Of a DNA stretch of 35,243 bases, positions 5,534-16,240 are shown piece by piece. A model generated the notes under the pieces. That model was given only the letters and a program-made list of their open reading frames with translations. It was not told the origin of the DNA and ran no database searches. The stretch lies in IMG/VR virus record IMGVR_UViG_3300046007_006957, positions 1-35,243 of that record. The stretch is one strand, 5' to 3'. This stretch comes from a virus. Position 1 is the stretch's first letter. Each line of letters opens with the position of its first letter. The position numbers were made by a program, and so were the translations under genes.

Positions 5534-6229
5534 ATGAAACAGATTGTTGTAATGCCAGGTGGTTTTCATCCTTTTCATGCAGGGCATTACAGCCTTTACC
5601 AGGCCGCAAAAGAACAATTTCCAGATGCTGAAGTGTTTGTAGCTGCGACTAACGATCAAAAAGAAAGACCGTTTCCATTTAATATTAAAGAGAAACTGGC
5701 AAGAGTTGCCGGTGTAGATCCTAGTCATTTTATACAGGTAAAAAGTCCTTTTAGACCAAAAGAAATCACTGATCATTTCAATCCTAATGAAGATGTACTT
5801 ATTTTTGTGCGCAGCGAAAAAGATAGGTTAGAAGAACCTAAACCAGGTGGAACAAAAAAAGATGGCACACCTAGTTACTTTCAACCTTATACTGGAAAAA
5901 ATGTAAAACCTTACGGAAAACAAGCATATATCACATATTTACCAACCATAACTTTTGGTCCAGGAATTAAAAGTGCGACAGAAATTAGAGACAACTGGCC
6001 TACTTTAAGTATGCGACAAAAAACAGCAATGGTTATGAGTTTGTATCCTGCTACTCAGAGTAATCCTAAATTAGCAACTAACGTTGTAAAATTACTGGAC
6101 GCAGGCATGGGCACAGAAACAGTTGATGAGGCGGCAAATCCAGCGCAACAAGCTGCTACAGCAATCAATATGAAAAAAGCTGGTAAAAAGCCTAAAACAG
6201 AAAGCCTAGATTATCTACCAGAAAAATAA
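5534..6229 (+). CDS. Nucleotidyltransferase of the HxGH (cytidylyltransferase-like) superfamily
   Basis: The N-terminus, MPGGFHPFHAGH, carries the HxGH nucleotide-binding signature (His15-His18) of the superfamily that includes NMN and phosphopantetheine adenylyltransferases, which transfer AMP or CMP from a nucleoside triphosphate to a phosphate acceptor. A second feature, GIKSATEIRDNW (about 153-165), resembles the (I/S)SxTxxR motif that holds the triphosphate. The catalytic domain covers about 1-170; residues 180-231 form a Lys/Ala-rich tail ending TESLDYLPEK. The substrate cannot be read from the sequence. In context it lies between virion-type genes and a glycosyltransferase, which would fit NAD metabolism or activation of a sugar or alcohol phosphate. 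The start is 1 base after the preceding stop. Confidence 0.82.
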   Translation: MKQIVVMPGGFHPFHAGHYSLYQAAKEQFPDAEVFVAATNDQKERPFPFNIKEKLARVAGVDPSHFIQVKSPFRPKEITDHFNPNEDVLIFVRSEKDRLEEPKPGGTKKDGTPSYFQPYTGKNVKPYGKQAYITYLPTITFGPGIKSATEIRDNWPTLSMRQKTAMVMSLYPATQSNPKLATNVVKLLDAGMGTETVDEAANPAQQAATAINMKKAGKKPKTESLDYLPEK

Positions 6230-7201: not shown

Positions 7202-7237
7202 TATAGATAAATACTATATTATTGCGGATTATCTATA
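7202..7237 (+). promoter_or_regulatory. Late-promoter-like box within a 9-bp inverted repeat
   Basis: GATAAATACTATATT begins at 7206 and closely resembles the T4 late promoter box and its downstream bases. TATAGATAA (7202-7210) is perfectly complementary to TTATCTATA (7229-7237), whose last base is the A of the ATG at 7237. The site separates the terminator at 7158 from the long packaged-protein cluster. Confidence 0.5.
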
Positions 7238-8640
7238 TGAAAGTTAATGATATTTTTGAAAGTACTGTCGCAGGTTCTATCGCAACAGTAGCGAAACCAC
7301 TAGGTGAGATTGAAACAAGGGTTGAAAAACCACCTAAAAGTCCGCCTGTTAAAAAGAATAAAAAGAAGTTCGCTAATCAAATCAGCGAAGGTGCTATGAA
7401 GGCACTTGCCTATAACCTTAAGCATATGGATGCTGACGAATTTCAAAAAGTATATAATAAAACTAAAGAATTTTTTACTAAATCAAATACAGCGGCTGCG
7501 CCCAAACCAACATCTGCACCTAAACCAGCACCTAGCACTAAAACAGGTTCTAAAGCATGGCACGATACTGGGTACACAGATAAAAATGCTGCTAAACAAT
7601 TAGACGAGCCTATTAAGGAAGATGAATTAAAGGAAGATGATTTAATCGTAGTCCCAGGCATGCGCCGTATGAAAGATACAAGTTTCATTCCGCATAAGGC
7701 AGATCGCCGTGACCATGAAGTAGAGATGGCGCGTAGTGATTTATATGCTGCTGCTAAAGACGCTATGCGTATCTATAAGATGATAGAGAACCGCACAGAA
7801 GATGAAGGCTTGATGGGCTGGCAGCAATCATACATCACATTAGCTTCTGACTATCTAAACAGCGTAGCCGATAGTTTAGAACATGATTACGCTGCGGAAG
7901 GTTTAGCAAATGTTGTAGGTAAACTAGCACATGCAGCGGCAAAAAAACAAATAGGAGATTTACCTAAAACAGCAGAAGTACAACGCGCTATAGCAAATCA
8001 AACTAATCAAAACGTCAAGAATATCAAGACAGCAACAAAAGTAGGTGCAGCAGCCGGAGCTGGTGCGGCAGGTAAAGCGGCATCAGACAAAATACAAAAA
8101 GAAAGTGCTGGAGTGTTGGCAGGTGGCATGAGCAATTTTGAAGAATCAAGACCTTATAATCCACTTGACTATGAACGCCGTGAACAATCGGCGATGGATC
8201 AAGAAAGAAGAGATTTCAAAAGAAGAGAAATGGATGCAGAATTAGCCGGTGAAGAGGAACGCGCAAGAAAATATAATCAAGGTCCTTGGTATGTTCGTGT
8301 TGATGGGAAAATTGTAAAAGATAAAAACAAGCAACCATACACGTTTGATAATCTTGAGGTAGCAAGGAAAGCAGCTCAAACTATGATGAAAAAAGATTGG
8401 AATCAAGGTAAACAATTTAGTTATTCACGCAGTCCAACTGATAAAAAAGATGTGGCGGAAGGCAAATGTGTTGAGTGTGGCGGACCTTCTTATAGCGAAG
8501 AAAGTATTGCTGAAGCAAAAGATGCTTGCTATAATAAAGTCAAGAGCCGTTATAAAGTATGGCCATCAGCGTATGCAAGTGGTGCATTAGTCAAGTGCCG
8601 TAAAGTAGGCGCAAGCAACTGGGGCAACAAGAGCAAATGA
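7237..8640 (+). CDS. Mosaic phage protein with T4-like capsid-targeting leader (467 aa)
   Basis: I take the ATG at 7237 because it gives the leader MKVNDIFE-S; an upstream in-frame TTG at 7222 has no better ribosome-binding site. IFE then Ser fits the [I/L]xE site of T4 prohead protease. The body is modular: a Pro/Ala/Lys linker (about 70-110), a helical module with ARSDLYAAAKDAMRIYK and WQQSYITLASDYLNSVADSLE, a Gly/Ala-rich possible membrane-active segment (about 265-280), a WYVRVDGKIV module, a CVECGG pair, and a C-terminal basic module with RYKVWPSAYASGALVKCRK. I have seen the last in large structural proteins of aquatic phages but no function is known to me. It overlaps the next gene by 4 bases. 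Likely an internal virion protein, by inference. Confidence 0.65.
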   Translation: MKVNDIFESTVAGSIATVAKPLGEIETRVEKPPKSPPVKKNKKKFANQISEGAMKALAYNLKHMDADEFQKVYNKTKEFFTKSNTAAAPKPTSAPKPAPSTKTGSKAWHDTGYTDKNAAKQLDEPIKEDELKEDDLIVVPGMRRMKDTSFIPHKADRRDHEVEMARSDLYAAAKDAMRIYKMIENRTEDEGLMGWQQSYITLASDYLNSVADSLEHDYAAEGLANVVGKLAHAAAKKQIGDLPKTAEVQRAIANQTNQNVKNIKTATKVGAAAGAGAAGKAASDKIQKESAGVLAGGMSNFEESRPYNPLDYERREQSAMDQERRDFKRREMDAELAGEEERARKYNQGPWYVRVDGKIVKDKNKQPYTFDNLEVARKAAQTMMKKDWNQGKQFSYSRSPTDKKDVAEGKCVECGGPSYSEESIAEAKDACYNKVKSRYKVWPSAYASGALVKCRKVGASNWGNKSK

Positions 8641-9041
8641 GAAATTACATAAACATCATCGAAGCAATAGAAAGAGGTTGCCCACCGGCAACACAAGATA
8701 TCGAACTCAATCTAAAAAATAGAAAGAAGGCTATCGATGAGTATATGTATGGCCCATTAGATCCCAATAAACCTAATATTGACTATTGGACCAAAATCGC
8801 TGATGAATGGAACATGGATGACATTGAAGATGCTAAGTCTGCAAGATGCGGAAACTGTGCAGCCTTTGATATAACAGAAGATATGCAAAATTGTATATCA
8901 AAAGGTATAGGTAGTGAGCCTGGTTCTGACCCAACATCGACTATTGATGCAGGCACTCTAGGATATTGTAAATTTCTAAAATTTAAATGCGCGGCTAAAA
9001 GAACTTGTAGCGCGTGGGTAGAAGGTGGGCCTATTCAATGA
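8637..9041 (+). CDS. Cys-rich small virion-associated protein candidate (134 aa)
   Basis: The start ATG overlaps the previous TGA. The N-terminus MRNYINIIE-A is leader-like with an IIE/A prohead-protease-type site, though the conserved-looking body begins almost at once with GCPPATQDIELNL. The C-terminal half holds six cysteines in the order CGNC, NC, YC, KC, TC (about residues 71-126), a spacing that could bind a metal or an iron-sulphur cluster. The phrase YMYGPLDPNKPN precedes this. I recall similar sequences in structural clusters of T4-like aquatic phages but no established function. The next gene overlaps its stop by 4 bases (ATGA). Confidence 0.6.
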   Translation: MRNYINIIEAIERGCPPATQDIELNLKNRKKAIDEYMYGPLDPNKPNIDYWTKIADEWNMDDIEDAKSARCGNCAAFDITEDMQNCISKGIGSEPGSDPTSTIDAGTLGYCKFLKFKCAAKRTCSAWVEGGPIQ

Positions 9042-9613
9042 GACACCGTCAATTACTTGAAGCGTGTTGGAAAGGGTACCATAAAGAAGGTATGAAGACC
9101 ATGTTTGGTAAAAAATATCCAAATTGTGTCAAGAATAAAAAGACCAACGAAGATCAAATAAGCGATGAGCGTGTACGTAAGATTCAAAATTTCTTAAACG
9201 ATAAGTTCGATGCTAACTTAGATGTTGATGGCGTGCTAGGTCCATTAACACTAAAAACTATAGACAAGTTTATGCCGGATGCTAAAAAGCGTTTAGCACC
9301 GGAGCCAGACAAGAATACAAATGTTCAAGGATTAGAGAAAAAACTAACTGAACAAGAATTAGAAGAAGATTTACGCAAGTGGTTTAAAGAGAAGTGGGTT
9401 CGTTTTGGACCAGATGGAAAGATTCGCGGAGCATGTGCAAGAGGTAGTGGTAGCGAAGGTAAGCCTAAGTGCTTGCCACAAAGCAAAGCACATAGTTTAG
9501 GAAAGAAAGGTCGAGCAAGCGCGGCGGCACGTAAGCGTAGAGAAGATCCTAATCCAGAGCGTAGTGGCAAAGCAAAAAATGTTGCAACAAAAAGTAAGAG
9601 AGATAGCAAATGA
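9038..9613 (+). CDS. Peptidoglycan-binding-like, basic-tailed mosaic protein (191 aa)
   Basis: I choose the ATG at 9038, overlapping the previous stop; an upstream GTG at 9014 would lose the leader MRHRQLLE-A, which has an LLE/A site typical of T4 prohead protease cleavage. A short CWKGYHKEGMK to NCV module follows. Residues about 45-85 (VRKIQNFLNDKF, then VDGVLGPLTLKTIDKF) match the helical peptidoglycan-binding repeat seen in many cell-wall hydrolases. The C-terminal third (KWVRFGPDGKIRGACA to RKRREDPNPERSGKAKN) is very basic with paired Cys and could bind DNA. It overlaps the giant gene downstream by 4 bases. A role as packaged wall- or DNA-contacting protein is inference. Confidence 0.65.
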   Translation: MRHRQLLEACWKGYHKEGMKTMFGKKYPNCVKNKKTNEDQISDERVRKIQNFLNDKFDANLDVDGVLGPLTLKTIDKFMPDAKKRLAPEPDKNTNVQGLEKKLTEQELEEDLRKWFKEKWVRFGPDGKIRGACARGSGSEGKPKCLPQSKAHSLGKKGRASAAARKRREDPNPERSGKAKNVATKSKRDSK

Positions 9614-12600
9614 GTAAAATTTTTGAAGGTCTAGACAAAGCAGCATCACGCCAAATACAAAATATTGTGCGTCAGAATCCAAAAGGTAGTGCTGCTGAAA
9701 AAATGCTATTAAAGCGTTATATCATGACACCAATGGTTCAAGACTTTGATTTGTCTGCTGAAGAATGGATAGGTCAGGCAACAAAATGGTTAGCTGCAAA
9801 TCAAAATAATATCAAAACAAACTATCCCGAAATTGATACAAGCGATCTTGTTAATCTAGCTACTAAAATGTATGAAGATTTCCTAGCAATGCAAGGACAA
9901 TTAGAAGAAGCGCGTTGGAAAGGTAAAATTGCTGGAGGACTTGCCGGTGGACCATTAGGCGCAATTTTAGGTGATCAAATACAAAAATATATTGATGATC
10001 CAGAATTTAGACAAAAGGTTGATCAAGCGTTTGGTATTGATAAATTAAAAGGCACTAATCAACCAGCTCAACAAGCAGCACAACCTGAAAAAACGTCAGG
10101 TCGTCAGTTAAGTCAAACTCCTGACGCTATACGTAAGCGCGAACAAAGAGCAGCAGCAAAAGCTGCACAAGCAACAGATAAACCTGTTACAGATAAACCA
10201 AGAGCAAGAGTAAATCCACAGACAGGTGCATTGGAACCTGTACGTACGGATACACCTAAAACGACAAAACCTAAAACTACAAGGACACCATCTGTTGCTG
10301 CGGCACCTGCAGCACCTCCACAAAGTTTAGGAGCACAGATAGGTAAAAAGGGTTATGAACCAGACATGCGCTGGTGGAAAAATCTTCCTGATAACAGTAA
10401 ATGGGCTGATGATGTCGCAAAATCTCCACTTGTACCGAAAAAGGTTAAAGCAGCATTAGCAGCATTAGGTGTTGTCGGCGGCGCTGCGGCAGGGCTAGTC
10501 AAAGGTACAGATCCAAGAGATAAAACAACTGCTCCCGCACAGACATCATCCGCTCCACCTCCCCCTCCACCATCCGGTGGCGGTCCTACATCAAGCGCAA
10601 GCAACAATCCTCCGCCGCCGTCGCCTGATAAAGATACAGTAGATATAACAACAGCACCTCCATCTAGCGACACATCAATCATGACTCCTCCTCCGGTCGC
10701 TGGACCTGATGAGCAAGATTCTGATATATTAGGTGCACCAGGTGCTGATACGTCAGAACCAAATGGTCCTATCGATAGAAACAGATCAACTGACGTAGCA
10801 ATACCTCAAAGACCAAAAAAGATTGAATATTCACAACCTGAAATGCCATTTGAAAATACTGATGCTGTTGCTGTTCCTCAACCTTCATCAGGCGCAATTA
10901 AGAAAGCAGCAAAAACAATAGGTAAGGGAGTTTTACCTGCAGCAACTTTATTAACTGTACCGGATGATTATAAAGATTTTCAAAAACGTTTAGGCAATAA
11001 AGATTACGCTGGTGCAGCATTAAGAGGTGTCGCTACTACTACCGGCCTTGTACCCCATTTCGGAGCACAAGCAGCGTCATTAGGTGCGGAAGGAGCACTT
11101 GCTGCCTATGACAATCCTCAAGCAGTAAAAGATTACTTTAAAAATTATAAACCAACAAGTTCAATCGGTAGAGGTATCAAGGAAGGTTATAGTGCTGGCG
11201 CTGTTGGTGGCATAGGACTAGGCGAAGAACTTGATGAAGCAGGCGGCCGTCTAGGCGCGGTAAACACAGTAGCACAATTGTTTAAATCAATTATGCGCGG
11301 CGGAGATCCTGTTGATATGGATATACAACAGAGACAGATGAACGCATTGATGCGCAAATATAATATTGATTATAAAGATATAGGTGTTAAAAAACCTGCT
11401 CCTAAAACATCTAGACAAGCCGCGAGTCCTGATATGAAGCCAGGCCAATACAAAACATGGGATCAAACACTTCCATCATTTGACGATATACCTAAAGCAG
11501 GACAATATCAAAAATGGATGCCCCCTGAAATAGAAGAAACAATCAATACACCAGGTGGCATGGGTCAAGCATATCGCAAGATTAAACTTAAACCAGATGA
11601 GATGGATGAAGGTATTGCTAGCGCAATTAAAGGCGGAACAAAACGTATCGCTACTATGCGTAAATATTTTGCAGGGGATGAAACTGCCAAAGATCCAACC
11701 GATAGTAGTATTCAACGTGCCTGGTTCGCGGATCCTAAAAACCAATATCAGATTCAAAGACCATCTCAACCTGCAAAAACATCTAAGACTACACTTATGA
11801 CTCCTGAAGATGAGATGATAAATGAATTGAGTCCTGAAACTCTAGCAAGTTATAAAAAGAAGGCAGGTGCAGAAGCAAGTGCTGCTGATAAAGAAGGCGA
11901 CTTTCAAAAAGGCAACAAGCGTTTTAGCGGAATAAATCGCGCAACTAGATTGCAATTTAAACAGGATGCTAAAAAAGGTAAAGCAGAGAAGGTTAATGAA
12001 TTAAGTCCTAAAACTATCAATGCATTTTTAGATAAGGCATCAGCAGCAGTAAGAGGCGGCAGACCAGAACCTGCAAAAATAAATCCAATCACTAAACAAA
12101 CAGCACCTCCGGGTTGGAAAGTTGCTGCTGGAAAAGTTGCTAAACCTGGCACAGCAATGGATCACTATGCTAAAGTAAAAGCCATAGAACCTAAAGTGCC
12201 GGTCAAAGAATATGACGCAAATTTGATAAAACAAATAGCAGCAGCAAATCAAATTAAAGATCCTAACTTAATTTATATAGGACAAAAGATCAGACTACCT
12301 TCCGGCGATACTTATGTTGTACAAAAAGGTGATACGCTAAGTGATATAATATATAATAGACCAACACAGTCTGAACCAATTAATGCGCCTGTTGCACCAG
12401 TCGCTTCTATACCAAAAGTAGAACCTAAAATTAGCAACAGATATCCAGATAGTGGTAGAAGCTCAGGCAGTACTTTTGTAGATCCAAGAAATAATCCTGG
12501 CAATTTGCGCGGTACAGACGCACTACGTAGACCAGGATACGTATTAGATAAAGCAGTAGGCTTTGATAAAAATGGTTTCGCTATATTTGCTAATCCCGAA

Positions 12601-13161
12601 GATGGCAAAGAAGCAATGCGCAGACAGTTAGCATTGGATGCATTAAAGAGAGGATTGACAGGCAGACAGTTGATTCACAAGTATGCCCCGCCAGTAGACA
12701 ACAACGATACAAACACATATATTAAAAATACTTTTGGTGAGTTAGGACTAGATCCTGACAGCAAAATCAGTGCAAAAGATTTAGATAGTATTCAAAGATT
12801 GATGGTAAGACAAGAACACGGTAAAGAAGGTATGAAACATTACTTCCCGGATGTTCCTACAAATAATATAATAGCACAGGTGAATGAGATGGAAATATTA
12901 CAAAAATTTTTAGATAGGAATGCTGATAAGAACAAACAGGATAAACCTGTACCAAACCCGAATGCTGTGTATAAAAAGCCGGGCGCGCCTAAATCAGCAC
13001 CCTATGATATCAGTCAGCCTGAAGAACCAGTAGAAGTTCCGGGACATTATTTAGAACGTGATCGTCCTAAACTTGATGCGGAAGTACAAAAGAGAATGCA
13101 ACAACTTCAGCCACAAAAAACAAAAGAAAGTTCAATATTAAAAGGAATTAAAGGACGCTAA
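9610..13161 (+). CDS. Large multidomain virion protein with LysM and lysozyme-like domains (1183 aa)
   Basis: The leader MSKIFE-G has an IFE/G prohead-protease-type site. Domains in order: helical N-terminus (1-100), a glycine zipper (about 105-122, KIAGGLAGGPLGAILG), long Ala/Pro-rich linkers with polyproline around 316-350, a second Gly/Ala segment (about 460-500), two NELSP modules (about 738 and 796), LysM-like segments near 870-915 (IYIGQKIRLP, then YVVQKGDTLSDII), and a lysozyme-like domain about 955-1085 that starts RNNPGNLR and includes FAIFANPEDGKEAMRRQL and KYAPPVDNNDTNTYI. That last arrangement is one I know from phage and bacterial wall-degrading domains. It probably cuts or holds peptidoglycan during DNA entry. 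Internal LEE/A, LDE/A, INE/L and VNE/L sites suggest processing. Confidence 0.75.
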   Translation: MSKIFEGLDKAASRQIQNIVRQNPKGSAAEKMLLKRYIMTPMVQDFDLSAEEWIGQATKWLAANQNNIKTNYPEIDTSDLVNLATKMYEDFLAMQGQLEEARWKGKIAGGLAGGPLGAILGDQIQKYIDDPEFRQKVDQAFGIDKLKGTNQPAQQAAQPEKTSGRQLSQTPDAIRKREQRAAAKAAQATDKPVTDKPRARVNPQTGALEPVRTDTPKTTKPKTTRTPSVAAAPAAPPQSLGAQIGKKGYEPDMRWWKNLPDNSKWADDVAKSPLVPKKVKAALAALGVVGGAAAGLVKGTDPRDKTTAPAQTSSAPPPPPPSGGGPTSSASNNPPPPSPDKDTVDITTAPPSSDTSIMTPPPVAGPDEQDSDILGAPGADTSEPNGPIDRNRSTDVAIPQRPKKIEYSQPEMPFENTDAVAVPQPSSGAIKKAAKTIGKGVLPAATLLTVPDDYKDFQKRLGNKDYAGAALRGVATTTGLVPHFGAQAASLGAEGALAAYDNPQAVKDYFKNYKPTSSIGRGIKEGYSAGAVGGIGLGEELDEAGGRLGAVNTVAQLFKSIMRGGDPVDMDIQQRQMNALMRKYNIDYKDIGVKKPAPKTSRQAASPDMKPGQYKTWDQTLPSFDDIPKAGQYQKWMPPEIEETINTPGGMGQAYRKIKLKPDEMDEGIASAIKGGTKRIATMRKYFAGDETAKDPTDSSIQRAWFADPKNQYQIQRPSQPAKTSKTTLMTPEDEMINELSPETLASYKKKAGAEASAADKEGDFQKGNKRFSGINRATRLQFKQDAKKGKAEKVNELSPKTINAFLDKASAAVRGGRPEPAKINPITKQTAPPGWKVAAGKVAKPGTAMDHYAKVKAIEPKVPVKEYDANLIKQIAAANQIKDPNLIYIGQKIRLPSGDTYVVQKGDTLSDIIYNRPTQSEPINAPVAPVASIPKVEPKISNRYPDSGRSSGSTFVDPRNNPGNLRGTDALRRPGYVLDKAVGFDKNGFAIFANPEDGKEAMRRQLALDALKRGLTGRQLIHKYAPPVDNNDTNTYIKNTFGELGLDPDSKISAKDLDSIQRLMVRQEHGKEGMKHYFPDVPTNNIIAQVNEMEILQKFLDRNADKNKQDKPVPNPNAVYKKPGAPKSAPYDISQPEEPVEVPGHYLERDRPKLDAEVQKRMQQLQPQKTKESSILKGIKGR

Positions 13162-13478: not shown

Positions 13479-13919
13479 ATGTTAGCAGATAAATTAAAAG
13501 TATTATTAGCAAGTTCATATGCCTTCGTCATCAAGGCACAGTATTTTCATTGGAATGTTGAAGGACCAAACTTTCCCCAATACCATGAATTTTTCGGCGA
13601 TCTATACGCTGAAGTATATGCTAGCTTAGATAAGACAGCAGAGTACATCCGCACATTAGATAGTTATACACCCGGCAGTTTTGAGCGTTATAAAGAATTA
13701 TCAATACTTCCTGATCAAACTATGGTACCACGCGCCGAACTCATGTTCGCTGAATTACAGAGCGATAATGAATTATTATTAGGTCTATTACAAGAATGCT
13801 TTGTTGTAGCAGGCAAAGAAAATCAAAGAGGCATTGAGAATTATCTTGCTGAAAGATTAGACGCACATGCAAAACATAATTGGATGATCAAGAGCGTTCT
13901 TAAGAAAGATAGACAATAA
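13479..13919 (+). CDS. dps: Dps-like ferritin (DNA protection / iron storage)
   Basis: The 146-residue product is a four-helix ferritin-like protein. The ferroxidase ligands known from E. coli Dps (His51, His63, Asp78, Glu82) align in spacing with His24 (QYFHWNVEG), His36, Asp51 and Glu55 (LDKTAEYI) here. Dps proteins form 12-subunit shells that oxidise Fe(II) with peroxide and protect DNA. The protein is somewhat short (E. coli Dps is 167) and lacks the Lys-rich N-terminal tail that helps DNA binding. It lies inside the cluster of leader-bearing proteins but has no leader itself. A role in protecting the replicating phage genome from oxidative damage is inference. Confidence 0.87.
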   Translation: MLADKLKVLLASSYAFVIKAQYFHWNVEGPNFPQYHEFFGDLYAEVYASLDKTAEYIRTLDSYTPGSFERYKELSILPDQTMVPRAELMFAELQSDNELLLGLLQECFVVAGKENQRGIENYLAERLDAHAKHNWMIKSVLKKDRQ

Positions 13920-13923
13920 TGAA

Positions 13924-14496
13924 ATGCGCATACGTGATCTTACTAACGAGGCCAGCCCAAATACACTAGAAGGTAGTTTAACTGACGATCTAGTGACTAG
14001 CAAACAATGGCTGGCAAATAAAGTTAAAGAAGGTCTAGGTAATAAATGCGCGAGAACTATCTATGTATTAGGTAGCTGGTATGGCAATCTAGCATATATC
14101 CTACAGAAAGCCGGCGTCGTATTTGATAATATCATGTTGATAGACATTAACGATAACGTATTAAAGACCAGCGAACGTTTATTAAGACCATTATTTAACG
14201 ACGGTCAATTGATATTTTTACATACCGATGCTAAAGATGTGATATATGATAAGCCAGGCATAGTAATCAACACAAGCATCAACGATATGAGTACAGATTG
14301 GTATGATGTTGTACCAGAAGGCATGCCTGTTATAGTACAAGGTCGCGATAGCGTGAGCGGGAGTAAAACTAAAGTTGCTGATATGAAACAGTTTAGCGAT
14401 ATGTTTCCTATGACTGTTGTAAATTATCTAGGTAAAAAAGAATTACAAGATCCGGAAACTGATTATACTCGCTATATGAAGATCGGTAGAAAATAA
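13924..14496 (+). CDS. Rossmann-fold, methyltransferase-like protein with leader
   Basis: The 190-residue product starts MRIRDLTNE-A, similar to the other capsid-leader-like starts, although TNE is a weaker match to the protease site. Residues 46-56 (IYVLGSWYGNL) form a beta strand plus glycine-rich turn in the position of SAM motif I, and IDIND (73-77) supplies the acidic residue after strand 2 that binds the ribose in class I methyltransferases. INTSINDMSTDWY (about 119-131) would be strand 4 and its catalytic loop. The substrate is not evident. It precedes the sulfotransferase-like gene with a TAATG overlap. Binding without catalysis is possible because motif I is imperfect. Confidence 0.6.
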   Translation: MRIRDLTNEASPNTLEGSLTDDLVTSKQWLANKVKEGLGNKCARTIYVLGSWYGNLAYILQKAGVVFDNIMLIDINDNVLKTSERLLRPLFNDGQLIFLHTDAKDVIYDKPGIVINTSINDMSTDWYDVVPEGMPVIVQGRDSVSGSKTKVADMKQFSDMFPMTVVNYLGKKELQDPETDYTRYMKIGRK

Positions 14497-15101
14497 TGAC
14501 ATTAAAACAGTATATTCATATACCTAAAACCGGTGGATCAAGTATAGAAAAAATTATCGAAAGTTCAACAGAGTGGTCTTATACAGGTCATGCTTCAAGA
14601 CTGATGGATATAAATGAAAAAAATGCTTTCTTCTCTATAAGAGATCCATTAACTAAATTTACAAGTGCATTATTGCACACATTGTTTATGGATAAAAAAA
14701 ATAAAGGGAATCTAAATGAGTTTATAGAGTATTTTAAAAATAAAGTAGAAAGCAATATAACAATTTTCTCAAAAAAAAATACACTTAAATTTTATAATGA
14801 CCGAAGATTGCCTATGATTTTTGCCTCGTCAGCATATTGGTTGGGAACTTTAGAAATGTATAAAACGTATGAAAATAAAGTTTTTTTAGCTTTAGAAACT
14901 TCTCAAATCAATAGATACTTTGCAGGATTTAATGATAGCACTGTCCATTACAGAAACCATAATACATATCAAATAAATTTTGATAGTAGCATCTCTGAAA
15001 AAAATTTACAATTTCTTTATGATTTTTACGATGAAGATTATAAACTTTACGAATATATAAAAACAAGACCTTATTATGTAGGGGATACCAGTGCGCAGTA
15101 A
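14496..15101 (+). CDS. Sulfotransferase-like protein (201 aa)
   Basis: The N-terminus IHIPKTGGSSIEK (7-19) is the 5'-phosphosulfate-binding loop of PAPS-dependent sulfotransferases, and FFSIRDPLTKFTSALLH (45-61) matches the 3'-phosphate-binding Arg/Ser segment. Such enzymes move sulfate from PAPS to a carbohydrate or other acceptor. At 201 residues it is shorter than most members (250-300), and the C-terminal half has no motif I can place. The coding sequence is clearly more AT-rich, with many Lys, Asn, Ile and Phe codons, than its neighbours, which suggests acquisition from another source. It overlaps the genes on both sides, so it is integrated in the unit. Confidence 0.75.
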   Translation: MTLKQYIHIPKTGGSSIEKIIESSTEWSYTGHASRLMDINEKNAFFSIRDPLTKFTSALLHTLFMDKKNKGNLNEFIEYFKNKVESNITIFSKKNTLKFYNDRRLPMIFASSAYWLGTLEMYKTYENKVFLALETSQINRYFAGFNDSTVHYRNHNTYQINFDSSISEKNLQFLYDFYDEDYKLYEYIKTRPYYVGDTSAQ

Positions 15102-15825
15102 AGAATTTGTCAACGAAAAATGGACTGCAAAATACAAACGCAGTATCAATTGTAATAATCCTAAAGGCTTTAGTCAACGCGCCCATTGTCAAGGTCGTAA
15201 GAAGAAAACAAATGAAGATGAGGATCTAAGTAAATTTGTAAAAAACAAATTGAAAGCAGCAGGGTATAAGTTTATAGGCAGCGGCTATGATGCGCAAGTA
15301 TGGATGAAAGATGAAGGTACTGTAGTCAAGATACTCATGCCTAAAGAAGATAATACTGCCCATGAAACATTCAGAATGTTTTATCAATTGAGCAAAAAAC
15401 TAAATGCACCTAATTTGCCACAATTCAAACAAGTAGATGGTCGTGAAGTTTATAACTTCACTATAAATGATCAACCGTTTGTTCAGTATGGTATGGAACA
15501 ATTATACCCATTAGAAAAGGGCTCATTAGACGAATACGTAGTTTGGATGTTAGCCGATCTTTCAGCAAAGCAATTAGATTGGGCGAAAGTCGTAGACATA
15601 ATAAGTAAAGATTCGGGCGAGGGCATGTACCCAAATGCTAAAAAACTACAGAAAGAGTTTGTTGCCCAAAATACTAGCAAGTTGAAAGAATATGAGATAT
15701 TCTACAACACCTTGCGTAAATTACATAAAGTAGGAAATAGCAAAGGGTATGGTTGGGATCCTCATACTGAAAACGTAATGAGACGTAGTGATGGCACATT
15801 AGTCATTACTGATCCTTGGGCATAA
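15091..15825 (+). CDS. Kinase-fold (APH-like) protein with capsid-type leader
   Basis: A GTG start gives the leader MRSKEFVNE-K, close to the T4 internal-protein leader. A basic CNNPKGFSQRAHCQGRKK module (21-38) follows, then a protein-kinase-like fold. A glycine loop GSGYDAQVW (63-71), VVKI with the ATP-binding lysine candidate Lys80, Glu92 in the next helix, the catalytic-loop pattern DPHTEN (Asp223 to Asn228, as in D-x-H-x-x-N of aminoglycoside-phosphotransferase-like kinases) and TDPW with Asp241 in the DFG position are all present. All key residues are in place, so activity is plausible. Length after the leader (about 205) is that of a minimal kinase. A packaged kinase that acts on host targets early is inference; small-molecule phosphorylation is an alternative. 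Confidence 0.68.
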   Translation: MRSKEFVNEKWTAKYKRSINCNNPKGFSQRAHCQGRKKKTNEDEDLSKFVKNKLKAAGYKFIGSGYDAQVWMKDEGTVVKILMPKEDNTAHETFRMFYQLSKKLNAPNLPQFKQVDGREVYNFTINDQPFVQYGMEQLYPLEKGSLDEYVVWMLADLSAKQLDWAKVVDIISKDSGEGMYPNAKKLQKEFVAQNTSKLKEYEIFYNTLRKLHKVGNSKGYGWDPHTENVMRRSDGTLVITDPWA

Positions 15826-15828
15826 ATA
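15821..15828 (+). promoter_or_regulatory. NATAAATA late-promoter-like box
   Basis: CATAAATA followed by TATACAT overlaps the stop codon of the kinase-like gene and lies 25 bases before the ATG at 15854. A GAGG ribosome-binding site is between them. Confidence 0.4.
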
Positions 15829-15853: not shown

Positions 15854-16240
15854 ATGAAGATTTTTGAAGTTATCGAAGCAAAGAAACTTGCAAGATCAGA
15901 TGATCTTGACGATGTTGTGGATAAGCCAGAAGATCCAGATGCTGATAAAGTTCCTCATATCCTGATGCAATTACGTAAGGCAATTGATGTTGATGGCAAC
16001 TATCCTATACTATTCAAAGATGGTAAGAAGGCTAAGTTGTCAATGGATCAGATTGCTGCTTTTGTCAAAAAGTATATGGGTCTAAATCCATCCGATAAAG
16101 AATCATTGCAAAATCAAGCAAGCAACAGCCTAGAGGGCTTCATGGCTGCACTAAAGCAAGAATTCAAAAAGCCAGAATTAGGCAAGATCAAGGGTAGTCG
16201 TTATATGAGCGGATTTGCTGGAGATTATGATGACAAGTAA
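15854..16240 (+). CDS. Small leader-bearing protein (128 aa)
   Basis: The ATG at 15854 has GAGG 9 bases upstream and yields MKIFEVIE-A, again a leader-like start with a VIE/A site; a TTG at 15839 in frame is less likely. The body is acidic at the start (DDLDDVVDKPEDPDADK, about 17-33), followed by a helical domain (HILMQLRKAI, MDQIAAFVKKYMGL, SLEGFMAALKQEFKK), and ends GFAGDYDDK. I do not recognise a family. Low sequence complexity is limited to the acidic linker. Packaging in the capsid is inferred from the leader and neighbours. Confidence 0.6.
   Translation: MKIFEVIEAKKLARSDDLDDVVDKPEDPDADKVPHILMQLRKAIDVDGNYPILFKDGKKAKLSMDQIAAFVKKYMGLNPSDKESLQNQASNSLEGFMAALKQEFKKPELGKIKGSRYMSGFAGDYDDK

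Follow-up and report, generated by a model that had tools for sequence, protein, structure and literature searches.

A minimal kinase related to T7 gp0.7 with a candidate T4-type capsid-targeting leader in an environmental phage

Introduction

In bacteriophage T4, the first ten residues of the capsid-targeting sequence are sufficient for packaging foreign proteins, and gp21 cleaves this sequence after L/I-X-E (PMC9026906). It has been reported that kinases were detected by mass spectrometry in virions of S-CREM2, S-CRM01, S-TIM5 and S-CBWM1 (PMC10665884). Kinase-PolyVal (PF18762), a minimal kinase of polyvalent proteins, was predicted to be injected (Iyer et al. 2017, PMC5512222), and T7 gp0.7 was reported to phosphorylate host proteins (PMC5512222). 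Since both cyanophage virion kinases and injected polyvalent minimal kinases have been described, the concept of a packaged kinase is not new.

In this study, we analysed a kinase gene in a 35,243-nucleotide stretch of viral DNA (IMG/VR record IMGVR_UViG_3300046007_006957; "the window" denotes this whole stretch). The initial annotation proposed an APH-like minimal kinase fused to a probable ejection leader and a small basic Cys module, and knew of no described case of this fusion. Virion kinases and polyvalent kinases had in fact been described in the reports cited above. In the open-licence literature, we found no account that joins a capsid-targeting leader to the present gp0.7-type family, and none of the Cys module or of the fixed junction.

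Results

The kinase gene and its relatives

As shown in Table 1, the leader (MRSKEFVNE) and the basic Cys module (residues 10-42) precede the kinase domain, and the ORF and the residues Lys80, Glu92, Asp223, Asn228 and Asp241 were all found where the initial annotation had placed them. The ORF shares 11 bases with the one upstream, and the ortholog in G001, a 98%-identical relative of 150,743 bp (locus L001), starts with ATG. Relatives of the kinase were found at 37 viral loci, and no cellular relatives were found in the genome_contigs search. The dN was 0.079 against a dS of 1.125 for the pair L025/L026, and 0.267 against 1.709, with dS near saturation, for the window and L025. Because of the 37 viral loci, the invariance of the catalytic residues in 29 of 29 sequences and a dN far below dS, the observed arrangement of ORF and motifs exceeds chance. 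These results indicate that the kinase ORF is real and evolves under purifying selection.

At L025, L026, L037, L040, L045, L047 and L050-L054, polyvalent-like fusions contain the kinase as their final domain or an internal one, with ASCH, zeta/PNK, HAD, ParB-like, GNAT, AIG2, ART and nucleotidyltransferase domains as partners. A second, divergent kinase of this type was observed near the first locus or near head genes at L008 2468-3184 and at G008 205691-206380, the latter with the leader MRVVEFITE. Short kinase-like proteins were also seen in cultured Vibrio phages at L014 2590-3093 and L015 2602-3081 (WDLRDSNVM/WDLHGGNIM, ITDP); the L014 protein, from Vibrio phage vB_VpaM_R16F and a candidate rather than a confirmed family member, begins with MRLNELFKDE, and these Vibrio phage proteins are possible laboratory models.

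Table 1. Features of the kinase locus, in window coordinates
Feature	Position	Strand	Remark
ATAAATA, T4-late-promoter-like	7207..7213	+	precedes the operon running into the kinase gene
Three upstream operon genes, leaders MKVNDIFE, MRNYINIIE, MRHRQLLE	7237..9613	+	
1183-aa operon gene, start MSKIFE	9610..13161	+	many internal x-x-E sites; peptidoglycan-hydrolase-like part
Methyltransferase-like protein with leader MRIRDLTNE/ASPNTLEGS	13924..14496	+	
Sulfotransferase-like gene	14496..15101	+	inserted between the methyltransferase-like gene and the kinase relative to G001
Kinase precursor ORF	15091..15825	+	244 aa, GTG start
T4-type capsid-targeting-like leader MRSKEFVNE, residues 1-9	15091..15117	+	predicted gp21-type cut after Glu9
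Basic Cys module KWTAKYKRSINCNNPKGFSQRAHCQGRKKKTNE, residues 10-42	15118..15216	+	flanked by two x-x-E junctions
Predicted minimal protein-kinase domain, T7 gp0.7-like, residues 43-244	15217..15822	+	ends one residue past DPW
Lys80 codon (VVK)	15328..15330	+	invariant in the 29-sequence alignment
Catalytic loop Asp223-Pro-His-Thr-Glu-Asn228	15757..15774	+	Asp and Asn invariant
Asp241-Pro-Trp, equivalent of the DFG metal-binding Asp	15811..15819	+	Asp and Pro invariant
ATAAATA	15822..15828	+	precedes the next leader gene (MKIFEVIE, 15854-16240)

Kinase fold and catalytic residues

An alignment of 29 sequences, with relatives from viral contigs, was used for conservation counts and as AlphaFold2 input. 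K80, D223, N228, D241 and P242 were present in every sequence, and Glu136 and Leu138 were likewise invariant (29/29). Loss of Lys80, Asp223 or Asp241 in relatives was looked for and none was found. Among the catalytic residues named by the initial annotation, Glu92 was the one that did not stand: apart from the window and its near-identical copy (2 of 29), no sequence has Glu at this position, and the reading of it as a conserved alpha-C glutamate was dropped.

The overall pLDDT of the AlphaFold2 model was 81.7, with about 82-98 per block over approximately residues 50-244 and values below 50 across most of the leader and Cys module. Foldseek against the PDB returned kinases (best E 5.6e-6, probability 1.0) at low TM-scores of about 0.28-0.36, with APH(2'')-Ia structures at the top by E-value and PknB next. 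In VIA-align, human MPS1 matched with Z 10.0 (136 residues, 3.5 A) and many protein kinases, the bulk of its rows, with Z 8-10. In a viral library, the top match was an uncultured-phage protein (E 1.9e-12), followed by annotated phage seryl-threonyl kinases. Sequence searches of the PDB with the single protein, A1 and a relative gave no kinase at a useful E-value. The confident prediction and its structural matches suggest that residues 43-244 almost certainly adopt a minimal protein-kinase fold, as the initial annotation had expected. Since the domain ends one residue past Asp241-Pro-Trp, the rest of a normal C-lobe is absent.

Relationship to T7 gp0.7 and other kinases

T7 gp0.7 is an early protein and is not known to occur in virions. 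The window protein matched PHROG 15752 (phrog_15752), which holds the kinase of the E. coli jumbo phages 121Q and PBECO4, with E 1.2e-9, and this family in turn matches T7-group gp0.7 kinases. By hhalign, the probability was 98.4% (E 9.1e-15) against T7 gp0.7 and four orthologs, and 97.6% (E 3.1e-12) against the jumbo-phage set. The glycine loop, the VVK/VIK lysine, D-x-H-x-x-N and ITDP are common to the window kinase and to T7 gp0.7 with its jumbo relatives (121Q gp205, PBECO4). These profile matches make it very probable that the kinase domain is homologous to that of T7 gp0.7. The initial annotation had likened the protein to the T7 kinase in concept; the kinship was borne out, but as real homology and not in concept only.

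Its "APH-like" label was not upheld. No APH profile in Pfam matched at E up to 1, the window loop WDPHTEN is without the preceding His-Gly of the HGD-type APH loop, and the sequence profiles point to a gp0.7-type kinase, so "T7-kinase-like" fits better. T7 gp0.7 lacks a capsid-targeting leader and has its own C-terminal extension of ~140 residues, whereas the window protein has the leader and Cys module and stops at residue 244; the C-terminal host-transcription-shutoff region of gp0.7 is absent from it. The window protein is classed as a homologue of the gp0.7 kinase domain and not as a gp0.7 ortholog.

The window protein had no match to Kinase-PolyVal PF18762 in Pfam, and this profile was sub-threshold in two relatives (20.7 bits for L037 and 19.1 bits for L040; cut-off 27). 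Like Kinase-PolyVal, the window kinase is without the C-terminal subdomain, its domain stopping right past D241-P-W, and kinases of the family are fused to other effector domains. Kinase-PolyVal is part of one giant protein, whereas the window has a short T4-type leader and cut-site-like junctions, and the phages are different. The sole Pfam hit of the window protein was a sub-threshold one to phiKZ gp86 (0.052), which was judged not credible.

The leader

The T4 internal proteins IPI-IPIII and Alt carry an N-terminal leader of about ten residues that ends in x-x-E and is cut by gp21; IPI begins with MKTFKEF. The kinase leader resembles them, but here it precedes a kinase, from which it is separated by a further module bounded by two cut-site-like junctions. 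The predicted cut site has V in the window (MRSKEFVNE), I in G001 (MRSKEFISE), and I or L in many relatives. Such a leader begins 27 of the 30 non-redundant kinase ORFs, compared to 75 of the 250 other ORFs of these stretches (p 2e-10; this and the other leader p-value are indicative, since the patterns were drawn up after data inspection and some of the sequences are related to one another). The three kinase ORFs that did not match the pattern were L028, L040 and L058. Leader-like N-termini numbered 6 against 0.8 expected in G001, and 12 against 1.2 expected in G008 (266 kb). The leader was also present on proteins otherwise unrelated to the kinase. A chance origin was rejected on the strength of internal-position controls and of the comparison with MS-detected proteins. 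The ejection-type leader proposed by the initial annotation was thus found again across the family, and its T4-like form makes it quite likely to be a capsid-targeting sequence.

T4-type gp21 and gp23 were found on two kinase-bearing jumbo contigs, G008 and G009 (318 kb), with RKYIAE/S and RKQLVE/N at the expected T4-type cleavage position of gp23, and a gp22-like gene also occurs among kinase-bearing relatives. In the window's own lineage (the window and the 150-kb G001, both incomplete contigs), gp21 and gp23 were not found; the protease was thus observed only in kinase-bearing contigs that are more distantly related.

A separate observation concerns a 1676-aa protein of G001 (91984-97014; L020 11984-17014, minus strand) with many internal x-x-E sites, which looks like an internal polyprotein. 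One of its basic modules weakly matches RaK2/121Q virion structural proteins (E 4e-3 to 5e-3), and tblastn with the whole large polyprotein gave no matches.

The Cys module and the kinase junction

The Cys module (33 residues) contains 10 K/R and 1 D/E, with cysteines at positions 21 and 33, and is probably disordered according to the model. At least 449 viral stretches carry it, and the proteins to which it is joined include methyltransferase-like, nucleotidyltransferase-like and ART-like ones. A glutamate directly precedes it in all 47 unique copies, and a second x-x-E follows most of them. In the methyltransferase-like homologue of L008, the module sits between the leader and the ASP start, and in the window the leader joins directly to that same ASP start. 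The module is therefore an interchangeable insert by its distribution, shuffled among proteins and present or absent at one and the same start, and it is probably cut off from the kinase. We rejected a regulatory role of the module in the kinase in view of the many non-kinase carriers and the low-confidence modelling. The fusion named by the initial annotation does exist, but its Cys module is generic, shuffled and bounded by two cut-site-like glutamates, and would probably be removed.

We found [LIVFMT]-x-E with its Glu 18-19 residues upstream of the conserved kinase GY in 23 of 30 sequences, compared to 0-5 sequences in most other two-position bins. This junction was independent of the upstream part, be it the leader, the Cys module, a zeta/PNK ATPase, an HAD/PNK-phosphatase-like, ParB-like, GNAT or AIG2 domain, or an ART (ParB-like, GNAT and ART were assigned by eye). 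The fixed junction would look like a processing site that frees the same mature kinase; alternatively, it may be a preferred recombination boundary.

Two further Cys/basic modules, CWKGYHKEG..NC and CYNKVKSRYKVWPSAYASGALVKCRK, were observed at window 9038-9613 and 7237-8640. Both recur in S-SCSM1 protein 29, a virion-detected protein.

Late promoters and the kinase operon

ATAAATA is the core of the T4 late promoter. In G001, 30 of 42 ATAAATA sites lie 8-70 nt before a gene start, compared to a permutation-set mean of 12%, and all seven TATAAATA sites do so, including those of the tail sheath and tube genes. This strong placement before gene starts makes late genes callable from sequence in the G001 lineage. 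As shown in Table 1, such sites precede both the operon running into the kinase gene and the gene that follows.

Leader-like N-termini are found on six of the nine genes of the kinase operon, and in two of the three genes at its start, x-x-E sites flank other Cys/basic modules. Between the window and G001, the first 45 nt of the kinase gene are identical at 32 of 45 positions, and the remainder at 688 of 690; the leader pattern survives this exchange. The sulfotransferase-like insertion (14496-15101) and the replaced kinase start (15091-15135) have the appearance of a cassette exchange at the leader. Within the leader-gene operon there is also a Dps/ferritin-like gene without a leader (13479-13919). 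A cytidylyltransferase/NMNAT-like protein at 5534-6229 has no obvious leader; homologous functions have been reported in cyanophage virions.

Leaders on cyanophage virion proteins

The link between leader and virion was examined in two published proteomes, S-CREM2 (PMC10665884, Table 3) and S-SCSM1 (PMC9602691). In S-CREM2, leader-type starts were found on the virion kinase gp14 (MKRFDAFLTE), the SAM hydrolase (MKDFDSFLEE), the cytidylyltransferase (MKNFSSFLTE) and gp13 (MKDLHSFLTE). The leader pattern occurred in 5 of 27 MS-detected non-structural proteins compared to 3 of 161 undetected ORFs (p 0.0018; small counts), and in none of 23 structural proteins; the authors of that proteome noted that CsCl carry-over is possible. 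In S-SCSM1, the virion NMNAT begins with MKSFLQFLKE/A and none of 51 control genes matched.

The S-CREM2 kinase was rejected as a direct homologue (hhalign probability 4.5%). It belongs to a different family, called APH/ChoK-like in PMC10665884, and has long parts flanking its kinase motifs on both sides, but it shares the leader-type start with the window kinase family. This leader is not discussed in the section of PMC10665884 on the kinase. By analogy, the virion proteome data support the idea of delivery and not homology of the cargo.

Discussion

Since the kinase carries a T4-like head-loading tag, it probably travels in the particle and enters the cell along with the DNA. The fold, the catalytic residues, the gp0.7 homology, the recurrent leader, the fixed junction, the occurrence of such leaders on virion enzymes of two other phages and the late-promoter context come directly from the analysis. 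We infer packaging, cleavage, injection and a host target, and propose that they would proceed as follows. The precursor polyprotein would be expressed late, and the nine-residue leader would steer it into the prohead core. A gp21-type protease would cleave after Glu9 and also after Glu42, so that both the leader and the Cys module are lost. The freed minimal kinase (residues about 43-244) would remain in the head, be ejected with the DNA, and phosphorylate host proteins ahead of all phage gene expression, as T7 gp0.7 does early on once it has been synthesised. We put the probability of this whole scheme, a targeted, processed, packaged and ejected kinase that hits the host at time zero, at roughly 60%. 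Judged by its parts, packaging in the virion is probable on sequence grounds, and for early phosphorylation of host proteins, argued by analogy, the odds are about even.

A different reading, also compatible with the leader and the late context, is that the packaged kinase acts inside the phage and has its substrates there, among prohead or core proteins or DNA-bound internal peptides, while the particle is being assembled. The operon is rich in basic modules that are potential substrates. We consider this rather improbable: T7 gp0.7, the nearest functional relative, targets host proteins (PMC5512222), and swapping among effector-type domains (ART, zeta/PNK, nucleotidyltransferase) suits host attack better. 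It is also unlikely, if a little less so, that the protein is an ordinary late kinase of the infected cell whose N-terminal motif is no packaging signal. T7 gp0.7 is made in the cell, and L028, L040 and L058 show no clear leader; against this, the leader fits the experimentally defined T4 capsid-targeting sequence, is retained on otherwise unrelated proteins, and marks virion enzymes in two cyanophages.

The Foldseek ranking of APH(2'')-Ia and the APH/ChoK-like label of the S-CREM2 virion kinase in PMC10665884 would suit a small-molecule kinase of the aminoglycoside or choline type. This is very improbable, given that profiles tie the window protein to the seryl-threonyl kinase gp0.7, that the VIA rows are mainly protein kinases, and that the stop right past DPW leaves no remaining C-lobe for small-molecule binding.

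The preferred reading, a kinase loaded into the head and delivered at infection, joins three things that were known separately: T4 capsid-targeting peptides, host-reprogramming gp0.7-type kinases, and unexplained cyanophage virion kinases. Somewhat better than an even chance may be given to a wider proposal, in which environmental T4-like jumbo phages and their relatives would have a general loading system. Interchangeable leaders and basic spacers bounded by prohead-protease sites would deliver dozens of swappable enzymes as polyproteins into the head and then into the cell at time zero; the cargo would include kinases, ARTs, zeta/PNK enzymes, nucleotidyltransferases and peptidases, the present kinase being one cargo cut at a fixed site. 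The sequence rule, a leader plus an x-x-E junction, offers a prediction of which proteins of environmental phages are carried in the capsid. With this rule, the cargo of uncultured phages would become readable from sequence, and exact processing sites could be predicted.
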